64,000 nt of DNA. Origin: Aurantiacibacter marinus. GTDB taxonomy: Bacteria; Pseudomonadota; Alphaproteobacteria; Sphingomonadales; Sphingomonadaceae. The notes below the pieces were generated by a model, which was not told the DNA's origin, did not search any database, and worked only from the letters and a program-made list of their open reading frames with translations. Below, one piece after another: positions 6,255-52,816 of this stretch. The stretch's first letter is position 1. Each line of letters opens with the position of its first letter. The translations under genes and the position numbers were made by a program. The stretch covers positions 1,178,001-1,242,000 of the forward strand of contig NZ_LDCP01000001.1 of assembly GCF_001021555.1 (NCBI RefSeq). The letters run 5' to 3'.

Positions 6255-7738
6255 TGCGCCTGTTCGATCTCGCCCAACACGCCGGGATCGATGCGGGATC
6301 TGCTGGTGACGCGCTCATCACAGGTTTTGCCATCGATCACCGCAAGATCGCTCCGGGTAATGTCTTTGGCGCGTTCGAAGGCGCGGTTGTAAACGGCGAG
6401 GATTTCATCCCTGCAGCAATTGCCAGCGGCGCGGTCGCCATTGTCGCGCGGCCCGAAGCCAAGGTCGAAGGCGCGTTGCACATTGCAGATGCCACGCCGC
6501 GCAAGCTGTTTGCCCAACTGGCTGCGCTGTATTTCCGCCCGACGCCGGATGTCGTCGTCGCGGTGACCGGTACAAATGGCAAGACATCCTGCGTTGAAAT
6601 GACCCGGCAGATTTGGCGCATGTGCGGATTGCGCGCTGCCAGCATCGGTACGCTGGGTGTCACCACACCTGATGAAAGCGTTTCCACCGGGCTGACCACG
6701 CCCGATATCGTCACTTTCCTCGCCAACAACACCGGTCTTGCGCGTGAAGGCGTGACCCATGTCGCTTATGAGGCATCCAGCCACGGGCTGTCGCAGTATC
6801 GCAACGAAGGTCTGCCTGTCGCTGCTGGCGCTTTCACCAATCTTAGCCGCGACCATCTCGATTACCATTCCGACATGGAAGACTATTTTGCCGCCAAGAT
6901 GCGGTTGTTCAGCGAAGTCGTTGATGACGGCGGCGCTGCGGTAATCTGGGCCGATGATCAATGGTCGCAACGCGCCATGGATGTGGCGCAGGCACGGGGC
7001 CTGACAATCTTCACAGTGGGTGAGCAAGGCGCGCAAGAGTATGAGGGCATTCGCATTCTCTCTCGTACAGCAACGCAATTGGGCCAGGAACTTGCTGTGG
7101 CGCATGGCGGCGAAACCTATCGCTTCCGCTTGCCCCTGATCGGAGCCTATCAGGTTGCCAACGCGCTGATCTCTGCAGGCCTTGCCTTGGTAACCGGCAG
7201 CCCGGCGGCACAGGTTTTCGACGCGGTATCACGCTTGCAGCCCGTCCGAGGCCGACTGGAACGCGCAGCAATTGCTGCAACCGGCGCGCCGATTTATGTC
7301 GATTATGCCCATACCCCGGACGCATTGAGCGCTGCGATTGCCGCCCTGCGTCCACACGTGGAAGGCCGCCTGATCACCGTGTTCGGAGCGGGCGGAGACC
7401 GCGATACCGGCAAACGCGCACCGATGGGCGAAGCTGCAATGGCCGGGTCAGACCTGGTATTCATTACAGACGACAATCCGCGCGGCGAAGATGCTGCAAC
7501 AATTCGCGCGCAAGTGCTCGCCGGAGCATCCGGTGCACGTGAAGTCGCCGGTCGGCGTGAAGCCATTGCTGCCGCAATTGCCGAGGCGGGGCGCGACGAC
7601 ATCGTGTTGATTGCCGGCAAAGGACATGAACAGGGACAAATAGTGGGGTCAGGAGAAAACATGCGGGTTTTGCCCTTTGACGACGTGGCTGTGGCGCGTG
7701 AATGCGCTGCAGCATTCGCAGCGGGCGGGGCGGCATGA
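6254..7738 (+). CDS. murE: UDP-MurNAc-tripeptide synthetase (meso-DAP adding)
   Basis: ATP-dependent Mur ligase that adds the third residue to UDP-MurNAc-L-Ala-D-Glu. The P-loop is TGTNGKTSCVEM at about residue 100. The DNPRGED segment carries the DNPR signature that selects meso-diaminopimelate rather than lysine, as expected for a Gram-negative. ASSHGLSQ and SRDHLDYH are further Mur ligase motifs. Length 494 aa is usual. It overlaps murF by 4 bp (ATGA). Confidence 0.96.
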   Translation: MRLFDLAQHAGIDAGSAGDALITGFAIDHRKIAPGNVFGAFEGAVVNGEDFIPAAIASGAVAIVARPEAKVEGALHIADATPRKLFAQLAALYFRPTPDVVVAVTGTNGKTSCVEMTRQIWRMCGLRAASIGTLGVTTPDESVSTGLTTPDIVTFLANNTGLAREGVTHVAYEASSHGLSQYRNEGLPVAAGAFTNLSRDHLDYHSDMEDYFAAKMRLFSEVVDDGGAAVIWADDQWSQRAMDVAQARGLTIFTVGEQGAQEYEGIRILSRTATQLGQELAVAHGGETYRFRLPLIGAYQVANALISAGLALVTGSPAAQVFDAVSRLQPVRGRLERAAIAATGAPIYVDYAHTPDALSAAIAALRPHVEGRLITVFGAGGDRDTGKRAPMGEAAMAGSDLVFITDDNPRGEDAATIRAQVLAGASGAREVAGRREAIAAAIAEAGRDDIVLIAGKGHEQGQIVGSGENMRVLPFDDVAVARECAAAFAAGGAA

Positions 7739-9192
7739 GCGCCTTGGCACAGGCACTCAGCTGGCCGCGCGTCCGTTCCGACGGGGTTCGCCTTGCATTG
7801 TGGACTTCTGCTGAAATCGCAGCCGCTACAGGCGGGACTGCTTATGGTGAATTTCAGGTTAGCGGTGTCGAAATGGACAGCCGCGATGTGCAGGCAGGTG
7901 ATCTGTTTGTCGCGCTGAAGGGCGAAGCGATGGATGGCCACCGTTTCCTTGATGCAGCAATCGCCAACGGCGCGGCAGCTGCCATCGTGGACCGCCCGGT
8001 CGATTATCCACATGTCCTGGTAGAAGATACAACATCCGCCATGCATGCGCTGGCCCATGCCGCGCGCGTACGGTCATTTGCCACGATAATCGGTGTCACC
8101 GGATCAGTCGGCAAGACGGGTGTGAAAGAGGCAATTTTCACTTCGCTGGAACGCGCCAGCAGAGGCGGTGCGCATCGCTCTGTGCGCAGTTACAACAACC
8201 ATGTCGGCGTACCTCTGAGCCTTTCGCGCATGCCGGCACGCAGCCGCTTTGGCGTTCTCGAAATGGGTATGAACCACGCCGGCGAAATCGCAGACCTGAC
8301 GGTACAGGTTCGCCCGCATGTTGCCGTGATCACAACAATCGCCCCCGCTCACATCGAGAACCTCGGCAGCATGGCGGCAATTGCAGCCGCCAAGGCAGAG
8401 ATTTTTGGCGGACTCGAGCCCGGTGGCACGGCGATTATCCCGGCGGACAGCGATCATTTTGAATTGCTGCGTGATACTGCGCTGAAACTGGGCGCGAAGG
8501 TGATCAGCTTTGGCCGCTCTGCCCACGCCGATATGCGCCTGATGGATGCGGTGCCGCAGGCCAATGGGGGCGCGCTCGTGACTGCCAGAATGGGTGCGAT
8601 AGGGCTGTGCTACAATGTCGCGGAGCCGGGAGAGCACTGGATCGACAATTCGCTTTGCGTGATGGCCGCAGTCCATGCCGCGGGCGGCGATTTGGGCGCT
8701 GCCGGTCTTGCACTGGCTGAAATGGGCGGTCTCAAGGGCCGCGGGGCGCGGCTATCGGCCAAGGTTCCCGGCGGGCAAGCGCTGTTTATCGACGAAAGCT
8801 ACAATGCCAATCCAGCCAGCATGCGCGCCACTTTGCAGCAATTGGGGCAAACACCCGCCACCCGCCGCATTGCCGTGCTTGGCAGCATGAAGGAATTGGG
8901 CGATTTTGCTGAGGCATTTCATACCCAGCTGGCGCAGCCCGTGGCAGAAGCTGGCGTGGACTTTGCCGTTCTGGTCGGCCCGGAAATGTTGGCGCTCGCT
9001 CGGCAAATGGGGAAACTTCCGCGCGACACGCTTGGCAACGCTATCCGCTTTGCCCATTGCGAGAATGCGGGTGAAGCTATCGCGGCGCTACAGGAATTCG
9101 GATTGGCTGGCGGAGACGCTGTGCTGGTGAAGGGTTCCAATTCAGTAGGGCTTTCCCGCGTGGTAGAACATTTCGCCGCCCGAAAACGCTGA
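7735..9192 (+). CDS. murF: UDP-MurNAc-tripeptide--D-Ala-D-Ala ligase
   Basis: Mur ligase that attaches the D-Ala-D-Ala dipeptide made by Ddl, finishing the cytoplasmic UDP-MurNAc-pentapeptide. It shows the P-loop [14 protein letters not shown], the [11 protein letters not shown] segment typical of Mur[11 protein letters not shown] and [11 protein letters not shown]. The start chosen is the ATG overlapping the murE stop (485 aa); an in-frame codon at 7702 would only add residues encoded inside murE. A 23-bp gap separates it from mraY. Confidence 0.95.
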
Positions 9193-9215
9193 CAAAAAGG
9201 CCTTGCCGCGAACCC

Positions 9216-10283
9216 ATGCTGTATTTTTTCGCCGAACTGTTCGAATTCGAAGGTCTTCTGAACCTCATTCGCTACCAGACGTTTCGCGCCGGTGCGGCCA
9301 TGATGACAGCGCTGATCATCGGGCTGGTCATAGGGCCCAAATTCATCAGCATGCTGCGCGTGCGGCAGGGCAAAGGCCAGCCGATCCGTGCAGACGGGCC
9401 AGAATCGCATCAAGCCAAGGTTGGCACGCCGACCATGGGCGGGCTGATGATCCTGACTGCGCTGACGCTTTCCATGCTGCTGTGGATGGATCTTGCCAGC
9501 CCCTTTGTCTGGGCCTGCCTTGCCGTGACGCTGGGCTTCGGCCTGATCGGTTTTCTGGATGATTACGACAAGGTCACCAAAAGCAGTCACAAGGGCGTGT
9601 CGGCCAAGGTGCGGCTGCTGGGTGAATTCGTCGTGGCCGGGATCGCCAGCTATCTGATTGTCAGTCAGATCAACACCAATCTCTATATCCCGTTCTTCGG
9701 TACATCGGTTGCGCTGGGCTGGTTCTATTACATTTTTGCAGCCGTGGTGATCGTGGGTGCCGGCAACGCGGTGAACCTGACTGACGGGCTGGATGGACTG
9801 GCGACCATGCCAGTGGTGATCGCGGCGGGCGCGTTCCTGATTATCTGCTACCTTGTCGGCCGCGTCGATTTTTCCGAATATCTGGGCATCCCGCATGTCG
9901 CAGGCGCAGGCGAGCTGGCTATCATGTGCGCGGCTATCATGGGGGCGGGTCTCGCATTCCTGTGGTTCAACGCGCCGCCTGCGGCCGTGTTTATGGGCGA
10001 TACCGGATCGCTTGCCCTTGGCGGTGCGCTGGGCGCGATTGCTGTGGCAAGCCATCATGAAATCGTACTGGGTATCGTGGGCGGGTTGTTTGTCCTCGAA
10101 GCTGTGAGCGTCATCATTCAGGTTTTCTGGTTCAAACGGACCGGCAGGCGGATATTCCGCATGGCGCCGATTCACCATCATTTCGAACAGCTCGGCTGGA
10201 AGGAATCCACCGTTGTGATCCGCTTCTGGATCATCGCCATAGTTCTTGCCGTGATCGGCCTTGCGACGTTGAAAGTCCGGTGA
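9216..10283 (+). CDS. mraY: Phospho-N-acetylmuramoyl-pentapeptide transferase
   Basis: Integral membrane enzyme with about ten transmembrane helices that transfers phospho-MurNAc-pentapeptide to undecaprenyl phosphate, giving lipid I. Signature segments are visible: [24 protein letters not shown] with the catalytic Asp pair, [23 protein letters not shown] and the C-terminal [14 protein letters not shown]. At 355 aa the length is exactly typical. The ribosome binding site is weak. The stop overlaps the GTG start of murD. Confidence 0.97.
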
Positions 10284-11665
10284 TTACTGCGCGCGCCTTT
10301 TCCGGGAAACGCTATTGCGTGCTGGGACTGGCGCGGTCGGGTATGGCTGTGGCTGAGACGCTACTTGCCAGCGGAGCTGACGTGACTGTCTGGGACCGCC
10401 GCAGCGAACCGCGTGAAGCACTGGCGGGGATTGCCAGGATTGCCGATCCGCTGGAAATCGATCTTCTCGGTTTCGATGCAATCATCCTGTCACCGGGCGT
10501 GCCGCTGAACACGCACCCGCTCACGGAAAAGGCGAAGGCGGCGGGCGTGCCGATTATCGGCGATATTGAACTGTTCGCGCTGGCCCGGCCTGAATTGCCG
10601 CCGCACAAGGTTGTCGGAATCACTGGCACCAATGGCAAATCCACCACGACCGCGCTTGTCCACCATCTGCTTTCTAGCGTCGGAGTTGCGGCCCGCATGG
10701 GGGGCAACATCGGCTTGCCTATCCTTGCTGAAGAACCGCTGCCGGAAGGCGGAGTTTATGTTCTTGAACTGTCGAGCTATCAGATCGATCTGACGCGCTC
10801 GCTGGCGTGCGACCTGGCTGCGCTGATCAACATTACGCCGGACCATCTTGATCGTTACGACGGGTTTGCATCCTATGCCTTCGCCAAAGGCCGCCTTTTC
10901 ACGATGCAGGGCGCGGAAAATTTCGCTGTATTCGGCTGTGCTGATGCGCCGACCAAGGCTGTGCAGCAGGCTGAAGCAGCGCGCCGCGCTCCGGGCCGGG
11001 CGGTTTGCATCGATGCGGGCAAATGGGCAGAGTACCAGTCCGATTGGCCAAGCTTGCAAGGTCCCCATAACCTACAGAATGTCGCCATCGCTGCGGCAAT
11101 GATGGAAGACATGGGGTTTGGCCGCGAACAGATATTGACAGGCCTGGCCAGTTTCCCCGGCCTGCCGCACCGTATGGAACGTGTGACGGTCCGCGATGGC
11201 GTGCTGTACATCAACGACAGCAAGGCCACCAATCCGGCATCCACTTCCCCGGCACTCGCCGCGTTTCCGCCGGAAGAAGGACGCAAGCGCATCCACTGGA
11301 TTTGCGGTGGCCTTGCCAAGGAAGACAACCTGGACGATTGCGTGCCGTACTTCGGGAATATCGCTGGAGCCTATACGATCGGCGAGGCAGGTGCGATGTT
11401 CGCGGATATTCTGGAGCCGCATATGCCCGTCGAGCGGAGCGAATTGCTGGCGCAAGCTGTCAATCAGGCGCGCAAACGGGCCGCCGCGGGCGATGTCATC
11501 ATGCTGAGCCCTGCCTGTGCCAGCTTTGACCAATTCCGCGATTTCGAAGTGCGCGGCGATACGTTCCGCGAACTGGTAGCCGCGCTTTGCTGCGGCGGAG
11601 ACCGCGAAGCATGCGGGCTCACTGGTTCGGATTCCGGGCGCAATCCGGGAAGTTCGGCGGCATGA
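10280..11665 (+). CDS. murD: UDP-MurNAc-L-alanine--D-glutamate ligase
   Basis: Mur ligase adding D-Glu to UDP-MurNAc-L-Ala in the cytoplasm. It carries the P-loop [14 protein letters not shown], the ELSSYQIDL segment, [11 protein letters not shown] and [11 protein letters not shown], all in the order of the MurD family. The start is GTG in a 4-bp overlap with the mraY stop (GTGA). Length 461 aa. The stop overlaps the ftsW start. Confidence 0.95.
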
Positions 11666-51069: not shown

Positions 51070-52233
51070 TCAGCCTTCCGGCACCATATCGAAGGCGATG
51101 CAGATGCGGTCTTCGCTGCACATGTGGGGAAAGGTGCGGTGGTGGATATGGCTGGGGAACATCAGCAGCATCCCGGGTTCCGGATGCACCAGGTGTGACG
51201 GCAGCGAGGCGTGGGTTGCTGCATCCAGCAGCCGCTCGGTCCAGCCGAACTCGATCGCGCCGGCCGGATCATCCGGCCCTTTCGACATGCCACCGGGTAC
51301 GGCGAGATAGTAGACCCCCGATAGCCAGCCGCCGTCATGTGTGTGCCATGTCTCGCATCCCCCTGCCGGGGCGATGATAGCCCAGGCGTTCATGCGTACG
51401 CGATCCGGCCGGGATGTGAACCACGGATGGTCCGAAGGTTTCAGCGACGCGGCGAAGCCGGCGGCATGATGTGCGATTTCTTGCAGCAAGCGGGTGATTG
51501 CAGGCTGTTCGCGCAGGCGCAATTCGTCCACCCGCCAGCTGTCCCGGCTCGCCTGTGCGCTATTGCCGAAGCGCAGCGCCGGATGGCTGCGCAATTCCTC
51601 GATTACTTCGCTGTTGAGGGCGTCCACATCCTCCAGTTGCTCTGATGAGAAAAAGGCGCTGCTTCCGCGCACAGCTTCGGCTTCTCCACGGCGCCCGAGC
51701 GCGGCCAGCGCGGTGGCCTGCGTTCCGAGGAGGCGCGTGGTGACGATGCCCCGGTTACGGAGAGCTTCGCAAATCCGCAGCGCCTCGTCCGGCTTGCCAA
51801 GATCAAACAGGATTGCTGCCAATTTGCGCAGCGCCGCCGAATTTGCAGGATCTTCGGCCAGTACGCTTTCGAGCAGAATGGTGGCTTCTTCGGGCCGCGC
51901 AAGCGCTCTCAGCACCGCTGCCTGTTCAATCATTACGGCACAGCGCAACCGAGGCTTTAGAACTGCGGTATCAAGCAGTGCGAGGCAATTTTCGCCCTCT
52001 TGCGCCTCACCCATTTTCAGGCAAGCGCGGGCCAGCAGCAAACTTGCACCGGGAGAGCGAGAGTCTGGCGCAATTGCGGTAATATCTGCCTTGGCGGTAG
52101 CGAAATCGTCTAGCGCGAGCGCCAGGGCGGCGCGTTGCTCGCGTAGCGACGTTGATGGCTTGGCAATCTGGCCGAGCAGGCGATAGTGTTCGGCGCGAAC
52201 CAGCTTGCGCGGTATCGGGAGATCAATCTGCAT
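51070..52233 (-). CDS. TPR-2OG-Fe(II) oxygenase, possible peptide hydroxylase
   Basis: 387-aa protein. Residues about 15-190 are tetratricopeptide-like helices (ATILLESVLAEDPANSAALR), and the C-terminal about 190 residues form a 2OG-Fe(II) oxygenase of the PF13759 type. WHTHDGGWLSGVYYLAVP carries H297 and H299, and H365 lies in SHIHHRTFPH; an Arg (R376) probably binds 2-oxoglutarate. The ATG at 52233 follows AGGTGG at 5 nt; GTG at 52242 is an alternative. Substrate unknown. The short peptide gene ending at 52276 lies 42 bp upstream on the same strand, and its product may be the substrate (inference). Confidence 0.8.
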   Translation of the reverse strand: MQIDLPIPRKLVRAEHYRLLGQIAKPSTSLREQRAALALALDDFATAKADITAIAPDSRSPGASLLLARACLKMGEAQEGENCLALLDTAVLKPRLRCAVMIEQAAVLRALARPEEATILLESVLAEDPANSAALRKLAAILFDLGKPDEALRICEALRNRGIVTTRLLGTQATALAALGRRGEAEAVRGSSAFFSSEQLEDVDALNSEVIEELRSHPALRFGNSAQASRDSWRVDELRLREQPAITRLLQEIAHHAAGFAASLKPSDHPWFTSRPDRVRMNAWAIIAPAGGCETWHTHDGGWLSGVYYLAVPGGMSKGPDDPAGAIEFGWTERLLDAATHASLPSHLVHPEPGMLLMFPSHIHHRTFPHMCSEDRICIAFDMVPEG

Positions 52234-52275
52234 CAGCACCACCTGTGCAACACGTGCTTGCTCCCGGCGGAAACC

Positions 52276-52401
52276 CTAGCTCGTCATTTCGCCGCCATCG
52301 GTACCGGGGCCAGTCAATGCCTCAATCGCATCAGCATTGCCGCCATCGACCTCCACAAGCTGCGGTTTGGTCCAGGTGCGGCGCTTTTGGTCTTCAGTCA
52401 T
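52276..52401 (-). CDS. Short ORF A1, candidate RiPP-type precursor peptide (41 aa)
   Basis: 41-codon ORF, too short for most gene callers, between typA and the oxygenase gene. AGGGGGA stands 6 nt before the ATG at 52401. The N-terminal half contains RTWTKPQLVEVD and the C-terminal half is GPGTDGGEMTS, Gly/Asp/Thr-rich. The pattern WxxPxLxxxD resembles the YxxPxLxxxG leader motif that RRE domains recognise in lasso and related peptides. A second short ORF at 52587-52703 shares the motif. Codon use is GC-rich like real genes. Coding status and RiPP nature are inferred; no RRE, protease or cyclase is in the window. Confidence 0.55.
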   Translation of the reverse strand: MTEDQKRRTWTKPQLVEVDGGNADAIEALTGPGTDGGEMTS

Positions 52402-52546
52402 CTATCTTCCCCCTAATCATGTGAATGCCCAAGCCGTAGCTATAACCTGTTCACGGGGGAAGTGGTTTGTGGCGCTCTCGTCATGATCTATTCGTCACGC
52501 TATCGTCCAACCCTGCTTCGTCAGGACGGCCATGCAGGGAGGTAAA

Positions 52547-52571
52547 GGCGCTCGGCGATCGCCACTGCGCC
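52547..52571 (-). terminator. Hairpin between the two short ORFs
   Basis: GGCGC (52547-52551) pairs with GCGCC (52567-52571) around an inner GGCGATCGCC palindrome. On the minus strand TTT follows, so it may attenuate transcription between A2 and A1. Confidence 0.3.
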
Positions 52572-52586
52572 GCCAATTATCGCTGC

Positions 52587-52703
52587 CTAGCTGGAAGGCA
52601 GATCCAGCGAATCGGTCACCGCACTGATGGGATTGCTCTCGATCTCGGCACGATCGAGGTCGGTGATCGTCGGGCGTGTCCAGCAAAGCTTGGCATCAAC
52701 CAT
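52587..52703 (-). CDS. Short ORF A2, candidate RiPP-type precursor peptide (38 aa)
   Basis: 38-codon ORF downstream of typA on the same strand. AAGGGA stands about 7 nt before the ATG at 52703. It contains LCWTRPTITDLDRAEIES, matching A1 at the WT(K/R)Px(L/I)xx(V/L)D pattern, and its C-terminal half is ISAVTDSLDLPSS. It has one Cys next to the Trp. It lies 186 bp from A1 with a hairpin between, so both could feed the oxygenase at 51070-52233. Coding status rests on RBS, codon bias and motif sharing. Confidence 0.5.
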   Translation of the reverse strand: MVDAKLCWTRPTITDLDRAEIESNPISAVTDSLDLPSS

Positions 52704-52816
52704 TCGTATTTCCCTTAGAAAGATAAGAAGCGACCCTTACCTCCGGGCACGAGGCGCCCGGTTGTGGGACGGGGAATTAGCGGAAGCGACGTTTCGACGC
52801 AAAGACCGATTTGAGC

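Follow-up and report, generated by a model that had tools for sequence, protein, structure and literature searches.

We analysed a 64,000-nucleotide stretch of the Aurantiacibacter marinus genome (contig NZ_LDCP01000001.1, positions 1,178,001 to 1,242,000; hereafter the window). In the labels used below, G000 is this genome (2.84 Mb, 5 contigs), other G numbers are compared genomes and L numbers are loci. On the minus strand of the window, two short open reading frames (ORFs), A1 and A2, precede the gene of an oxygenase that joins tetratricopeptide repeats (TPR) to a 2-oxoglutarate (2OG)-Fe(II) domain. An earlier note, made from the letters of the window, had proposed a new system for ribosomally synthesized and post-translationally modified peptides (RiPPs), in which the oxygenase modifies A1 and A2.

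Two putative precursor genes next to a TPR-2OG oxygenase

All features of the locus are on the minus strand. A1 (52276..52401), identified from the ORF list and from profile matches, encodes a putative precursor peptide of 41 residues, MTEDQKRRTWTKPQLVEVDGGNADAIEALTGPGTDGGEMTS. A Shine-Dalgarno sequence, AGGGGG (52409..52414), stands 7 nt before its ATG. The leader contains WTKPQLVEVD (52345..52374), a putative recognition motif for a RiPP recognition element (RRE). The W and P of this motif, as well as the ring Asp of the core, are invariant in 14 aligned precursors. On the basis of the alignment, the predicted core ALTGPGTDGGEMTS (52279..52320) would form a ring between Ala1 and Asp8, with Ile at position -2 and Ser at the C-terminus. 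A2 (52587..52703), identified in the same way, encodes a putative precursor of 38 residues, MVDAKLCWTRPTITDLDRAEIESNPISAVTDSLDLPSS, and its Shine-Dalgarno sequence, AAGGGA (52711..52716), is also located 7 nt before the ATG. Its predicted core SNPISAVTDSLDLPSS (52590..52637) would carry a ring from Ser1 to Asp9 if Ile is at position -2, or alternatively an 8-residue ring starting from Asn. The A2 leader contains WTRPTITDLD, and the motif common to both ORFs is WT(K/R)Px(L/I)xx(V/L)D. The gene typA lies directly upstream of A2, and 42 bp separate the end of A1 from the oxygenase ATG (52233). The sizes, strand, start signals, shared motif and gap of the two ORFs are thus as described in the earlier note.

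The oxygenase gene (51070..52233) encodes 387 residues from this ATG, with an alternative GTG start at 52242, and its product is a proposed local tailoring enzyme. In agreement with the earlier assignment, the GTG form matches PF13759 in Pfam with 77.4 bits against a gathering cut-off of 27, and the protein falls short of the NCBIfam TIGR02466 cut-off (59.2 versus 62.5 bits). Two more PF13759 matches are found elsewhere in G000.

Profiles were adopted because the motif, used alone as a regular expression, yielded many chance ORFs. With an 8-row profile built from cluster-linked precursors, all from genomes other than G000, A1 is the top match of the window among 1519 six-frame segments (33.3 bits, E 2.6e-9), against a best score of 9.5 bits in 50 dinucleotide shuffles. 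A2 ranks second with 8.5 bits, which is not significant (E 0.15). A profile of 44 relatives, devoid of G000 sequences, gives E 4e-14 for A1, 4e-4 for A2 and 0.5 for the next match of the window; this test is not wholly independent, because many of the 44 were collected via a profile containing A1 and A2. Hence, precursors from other genomes support A1 and, less strongly, A2, in line with the proposal of RiPP-type precursors that carry an RRE-type leader. No NCBIfam model matches A1 or A2 up to E 10. Resemblances of A1 to PqqA (Pfam E 0.05, below the cut-off) and of A2 to DUF6284 (E 0.12) were rejected.

A scattered family of precursors

A search of G000 with a first profile, built from eight precursors among which were A1 and A2, retrieved three further leader-type ORFs and a fourth, weak one (E 0.05). 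The latter, MPKALKVWTTPACVDCDKTATSISAAAGPAGFDGGAFPNSYATS, has the same form with a final Ser, and reaches E 7e-5 with a later profile, derived from the 14-row precursor alignment and used in the later searches. In total, G000 contains six precursors on four contigs. Among 40 genomes of the genus, 8 are positive at E<=0.01, with six precursors in G000, nine in G213, five in G309, four in G300, two in G314 and one each in G251, G306 and G319. At the family level, 12 of the 298 genomes are positive at E<=0.001, among them G169 with nine matches and G023 with seven. Weak matches in G152, G238, G249 and G290, from the family sample and examined on short loci only, were set aside.

Features of the family were counted over 49 loci including the window (17,234 six-frame segments), most of which were picked because they held hits. 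All 50 profile matches with E<0.01 end with Ser, including 36/36 outside the training set, a count that the C-terminal columns of the profile may slightly favour. Of 52 rows, 46 align at the ring-acid column, and the residue there is acidic in all of them (D in 43, E in 3). The span from the Trp to the ring acid, both ends counted, is 25 residues in 31 of these 46 rows, 26 in A1 and 24 in A2; a span of 25 corresponds to positions -17 to 8 of BsfA (PMC10368454). With the core start as predicted from the alignment, the ring acid falls within the core positions 7-9 expected of a lasso precursor, and the aromatic-x-x-P-x-L motif agrees with its expected place about 17 to 12 residues before the core, with Trp in place of Tyr. 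The residue assigned to position -2 is Ile, Val or Cys (one Cys) in 13 of the 14 rows; the remaining row, A2, fits only with a 9-residue ring. Overall, A1 and A2 are best read from their sequences as lasso precursors of the Ile/Val(-2), C-terminal-Ser type, defined by WxxPx(L/V/I), a ring Asp or Glu, and the final Ser.

Several genomic settings of the family can be described. A type IV secretion locus holds family precursors in G000 (L122 6391-6534), G213 (L190 5981-6121), G300 (L199 6070-6210) and G309 (L186 5999-6139). VirB3 adjoins the precursor according to Pfam in G000 and G213 and by resemblance in G300; VirB4 is present as well in G000, and the place in G309 is similar. A putatively secreted protein carrying a phage tail collar domain (PF07484) is encoded near a precursor in G000 (L122 7304-7915) and beside the lasso cluster of G169 (L089 4880-5515). 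On contig C2 of G169, five family precursors are grouped in about 2 kb (L206 4646-6658), and no maturation gene was seen by eye among the nearest listed neighbours.

Two maturation clusters outside the window

None of the PqqD, Transglut_core3 and Asn_synthase matches of G000 (E up to 0.1) falls inside the window, which bears out the earlier statement that it lacks an RRE, a protease and a cyclase. These matches coincide at two places, L073 and L074, both outside the window. The earlier suggestion that partner enzymes may be encoded elsewhere thus holds, in that G000 possesses the lasso genes B1 (PqqD), B2 (Transglut_core3) and C (Asn_synthase) in two clusters.

L074 is located at about 43-51 kb of contig C3, a contig other than that of the window. 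It comprises genes for PqqD, a sulfotransferase, an HPrK-like kinase, the cyclase (Asn_synthase), NTP_transf_5, Transglut_core3, an ABC transporter and a PAS-LuxR regulator. With NCBIfam models, lasso_biosyn_B2 is above its cut-off (61.2 versus 33), and matches below cut-off are obtained for lass_lactam_cya (E 8e-60), lasso_PqqD_Bac (E 1e-15) and HprK_rel_A (E 8.7e-9). A precursor adjoining the B and C genes is usual for lasso systems but is not known to be class-defining. At L074, no leader-type precursor is found beside the B and C genes over the 19 kb read, including flanks of about 6.5 kb and 4.3 kb past the cluster genes; a single W-S-R-P match, in another frame inside a long gene, is due to chance. 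The nearest family precursor on the same contig is about 66 kb away. The L074 cyclase shares 42-43% identity with the cyclase of G169, and a WTKP precursor lies about 2 kb away from the latter.

The L074 gene set is kept in G309, G306, G213, G300 and G251, with NTP_transf_5 unmatched in G213 and G300. In G251, a precursor is retained beside PqqD. No linked precursor was seen in the clusters of G306, G213 and G300, apart from one weak and unlikely match in G306 (E 0.4); for G309, its lack is not established because the contig ends just past PqqD. The sulfotransferase gene (L074 6825-7730) is a member of the cluster in all six congeners compared (G309, G306, G213, G300, G251 and G314).

L073, at about 580 kb of contig C1, is an ordinary lasso cluster in which PqqD and HPrK-like genes accompany those for a methyltransferase, a cyclase and a Transglut protein. 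The precursor encoded in this cluster has a Tyr leader and is recognised by NCBIfam lasso_leader_L3 (23.8 versus 19); its predicted cleavage at YERPALTAFGSVRNLTG/GSGG places Thr at position -2. The cyclases of L073 and L074 are only 22% identical.

Co-occurrence with the cyclase and selection

Of the 40 genus genomes, 11 contain a match to the L074 cyclase at E<=1e-60, and 7 of them reach E<1e-100. After leaving out the two genomes that supplied training sequences, the sample consists of 38 congeners, in which precursors are present in 5/5 genomes having the cyclase at E<1e-100 versus 1/33 of the others (Fisher p 1.2e-5). Conversely, 7 of the 8 congeners with W-type precursors possess an L074-type cyclase. 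In the family sample, 20 of 298 genomes have the cyclase at E<=1e-60, and all eight genomes with E<1e-100 contain precursors, seven of these being training genomes.

Selection was evaluated from positional ortholog pairs of the family. In four pairs, the nonsynonymous rates (dN 0.25, 0.41, 0.43 and 0.33) are lower than the synonymous ones (dS 1.24, 1.8, 1.07 and 2.8, respectively), with the caveat that dS is high, the ORFs are short and the pairs, from different species, were matched by neighbour resemblance. Two cross-pairs complete the six comparisons, with dS either saturated (3.9) or not computable.

The oxygenase and its homologues

In the AlphaFold2 model of the enzyme (pLDDT 91.6), an array of TPRs precedes the oxygenase part, which matches 3bvc, 2rg4 and prolyl hydroxylases, 4j25 among them. 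In an alignment of seven RiPP-linked oxygenases, including that of the window, H297-x-H299, H365 and R376 are among the invariant residues and would be the metal and 2OG ligands. The usual motif of 2OG oxygenases is H-x-D. The H-x-H of the PF13759 domain of the window is also present in 3bvc and 2rg4.

In the 298 genomes of the family, the closest tier of homologues (non-self matches, E<1e-40) comprises five genomes: G169, G205, G065 and G260, the last two with two copies each, and G228. The best homologue, from G169, belongs to another genus and is 42% identical. There, 40 bp separate the end of a 55-residue W-S-P-P ORF from the oxygenase downstream, and a DUF805 gene and a typA-like gene are found farther upstream. 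In G228, a WTQP ORF immediately precedes the homologue, surrounded by HPrK-like, PqqD, NTP_transf_5 and ABC genes, and a cyclase match is found further on. The association of oxygenase and precursors proposed in the earlier note thus recurs in both genomes. In G260, a WVEP ORF lies about 6 kb from two oxygenase copies that are surrounded by carbamoyltransferase, PqqD, HPr kinase and NTP_transf_5 genes; in G065, a WIEP ORF and an Asn_synthase match are located between the two copies; in G205, PqqD and ABC genes are near the homologue. In G289, a weaker relative (31% identity) is preceded by a WVAP ORF and an Asn_synthase gene. Since all five closest-tier genomes place the oxygenase in an RRE, lasso or precursor context, the reading of A1 and A2 as precursors associated with the oxygenase is supported.

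The expectation that homologous oxygenases are flanked by such ORFs holds for this closest tier, with a leader-type ORF within about 7 kb in 4/5 genomes and an RRE gene in the fifth, and fails for most of the more distant homologues. Among nine loci of the latter that were examined (L040, L042-L047, L050 and L075), eight have no machinery match at E<=1e-3 and no precursor hit with an E value better than 0.8. Only at L044 do PqqD and cyclase matches occur, together with a weak precursor hit. At this locus (6920-11021, G286), a PF13759 TPR oxygenase, the PqqD and cyclase matches and a 74-residue W-R-S-P ORF are possibly another oxygenase-linked lasso cluster. In the 40 genus genomes, no orthologue of the oxygenase is found, the next best match being 30% identical (E 4e-22). 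In named genomes, a single distant oxygenase was retrieved, from Sphingomonas deserti (29%); in plasmid records, the only matches were Tistrella cyclases (30-31%) and a Sphingobium oxygenase (33%).

The enzyme CanE, of the 2OG-Fe type, hydroxylates Asp14 of the linear canucin A precursor with the help of B1 (PMC9266682). An acidic tail residue is present in 6/7 oxygenase-linked precursors versus 10/45 others (p 0.002; a post hoc comparison, with partly by-eye assignment and related rows), and the raw automatic count is 7/7 versus 13/45. This enrichment suggests that the oxygenase would hydroxylate an Asp or Glu of the tail, by analogy with CanE.

Proposed maturation in trans

In our view, A1 and A2 are likely to be precursors of class II-type lasso peptides, members of a family scattered singly or in small groups, and matured in trans by L074. 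A1 and A2 lie far from the expected maturation enzymes, and at least four further precursors are dispersed over G000, a layout that suggests a single set of enzymes for many unlinked peptide genes. In the proposed scheme, A1 and A2 would be translated and their leader WTxPx(L/I) bound by a free-standing PqqD-type RRE (B1). The TPR-2OG oxygenase would then hydroxylate the linear precursor, possibly at the acidic tail residue. The C-terminal Ser would be phosphorylated by the HPr-like kinase, and the nucleotidyltransferase and the sulfotransferase may add to it. After cleavage behind Ile-Glu by the B2 peptidase, the asparagine-synthetase-like cyclase would close the ring between residue 1 and the Asp8 side chain (Asp9 in A2), and the ABC transporter would export the product. 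Leader binding, phosphorylation, cleavage, cyclization and export would be supplied by L074, and hydroxylation by the local oxygenase. Sequence data show the precursor family with its scatter and cyclase co-occurrence, as well as the gene content of the cluster; we infer the action of L074 on A1 and A2, every chemical step, the order of the steps and the hydroxylation site.

A broader view, which we hold with somewhat less confidence, is that of a trans-acting lasso economy: in the genus, one precursor-less cluster would mature up to six to nine scattered precursors, each free to have its own regulation and to acquire its own local tailoring enzyme (the TPR-2OG oxygenase in the case of the window), as a lasso counterpart of the prochlorosins. 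Settings that may provide such regulation are the type IV secretion locus and the vicinity of typA.

A number of observations weigh against the lasso reading with maturation by L074. The cyclase cut of 1e-100, on which the Fisher p is based, was picked after the data had been seen. At 1e-60, precursors occur in 5/9 untrained cyclase-positive congeners, the other four having cyclases that are 29-33% identical, and only 1/12 family genomes with a cyclase between 1e-60 and 1e-100 gives a precursor match (G290). The precursor match of G319 (E 4e-4) is found without an L074-type cyclase at E<=1e-60. The assembly of G000 is split into 5 contigs, so that distances hold only within a contig. In the family itself, position -2 is Ile, Val or Cys, and not the Thr usual in lasso precursors; the sixth precursor of G000 (L125) has no Shine-Dalgarno sequence by a simple rule; one match of G213 (L195) carries W-S-S-L and misses the Pro; and the cluster-linked precursors of G260 and G289 are under the profile threshold and were located by the motif only. 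A2 is the poorer fit, with E values of 0.15 and 4e-4 and a ring of 9 residues or an 8-residue ring opened by Asn-Pro. The G205 cluster yielded no leader-type ORF, and the 40 genomes of the genus contain no orthologue of A1, A2 or the oxygenase. Finally, a lasso fold is not readable in a sequence.

Three other explanations were considered. A1 and A2 could form a stand-alone pair with the oxygenase, which alone would hydroxylate them, the leader being kept or cut by a general protease and no ring being formed. RRE, peptidase and cyclase are indeed absent from the window, and no such gene was noted next to the homologous pair of G169 in the gene calls; the only PqqD gene of G169 lies elsewhere. 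However, the full lasso set of leader motif, D/E-only ring acid and final Ser is common to A1, A2 and cluster-adjacent lasso precursors, the family occurs mostly where a matching cyclase exists, and PqqD-type RREs are encoded elsewhere in G000, all of which makes this explanation unlikely. The same lasso features, together with the cluster on the other contig, indicate that the modification is probably not restricted to hydroxylation, which was one of two possibilities raised in the earlier note. An even smaller probability is given to A1 and A2 being relics strayed from a cluster and no longer matured, with the oxygenase acting on another substrate. The absence of orthologues in the genus and the 42% identity of the closest oxygenase would agree with relics, but the start, Shine-Dalgarno sequence, W, P, ring Asp and final Ser are kept in both ORFs, the precursor-oxygenase pair recurs in another genus, and dN is below dS in the four positional pairs of scattered family members.

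Maturation by L073, or by both clusters, is the least probable of these explanations. L073 has the genes listed above and might also act on A1 and A2, a further point against an exclusive role of L074. Yet its own precursor is of the Tyr-leader, Thr(-2) form recognised by lasso_leader_L3, while A1 and A2 match nothing in NCBIfam; its cyclase is divergent from that of L074, and it is the L074-type cyclase that accompanies W-type precursors in 7/8 congeners.

Relation to known systems

According to PMC10368454, BsfA of Bradymonas has a YxxPxL motif at -17 to -12, its Gly1 is predicted to join Asp8, and Ile replaces Thr at position -2. Precursors with Ile/Val(-2) are also reported there, from in silico work, for Sphingomonadales and Acidobacteriaceae, and all the clusters encode a kinase or phosphotransferase. 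The system described here resembles this type in its aromatic-x-x-P-x-L leader, Ile/Val(-2), Asp8 ring, kinase, nucleotidyltransferase, split B1/B2, cyclase and ABC transporter. In the BsfA type, the precursor is in the cluster, the leader is YxxPxL with Tyr, and Ser3 is phosphorylated (PMC10368454); here, in contrast, the leader has Trp, the final residue is Ser, the precursor genes are away from the machinery, and a sulfotransferase and a TPR-2OG oxygenase are added. Kinases of the paeninodin/SyanA kind phosphorylate the C-terminal Ser (PMC9266682). Likewise, the final Ser is invariant here and an HPr-like kinase, whose match is under the curated cut-off, is encoded in trans. In the section of PMC9266682 that treats them, paeninodin and SyanA are not described as dispersed and no oxygenase is named for them. 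As with canucin A and CanE, a 2OG-Fe oxygenase would act on a linear lasso precursor with B1, which is only proposed here; CanE is encoded within its cluster (PMC9266682), whereas the TPR-fused PF13759 enzyme is beside orphan precursors.

Scattered precursors served by a single enzyme set would recall the prochlorosins, lanthipeptides made by ProcM, in which one enzyme set acts on many precursors scattered in the genome. The single set is only proposed here, and the chemistry differs from that of lanthipeptides; as for the dispersal, scatter and co-occurrence are observed at the sequence level. Lasso genome mining usually seeks precursors beside the cyclase, so scattered ones could escape it. 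In a literature search, judged mostly from listings and covering few subscription papers, neither dispersed lasso precursors nor a lasso oxygenase of the TPR-2OG kind came up. A learned model that predicts RiPP precursors, PMC11118758, mentions a Sphingomonadales lasso family and may have met such orphans. Rather than the new RiPP system put forward in the earlier note, the leader, ring acid and C-terminal Ser fit the Ile/Val(-2) phosphorylated lasso type, with a matching cluster on the other contig. The system would thus be a variant of lasso systems, new in its dispersed precursors, and not a new RiPP class.

If maturation in trans is true, one substrate-tolerant lasso enzyme set makes many products from unlinked genes. 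The tolerance of the RRE and the peptidase for variable cores then becomes testable, as does the separation of two lasso pathways in one genome, with Tyr/Thr(-2) and Trp/Ile(-2) leaders. In addition, the TPR-fused 2OG oxygenase is a proposed tailoring enzyme with candidate substrates at hand.

A minor observation concerns G319. At L213 (3756-7014), a precursor-like ORF is located between two genes that resemble, by eye, those of a lasso cyclase and an HPrK-like kinase, perhaps representing another type of lasso cluster.

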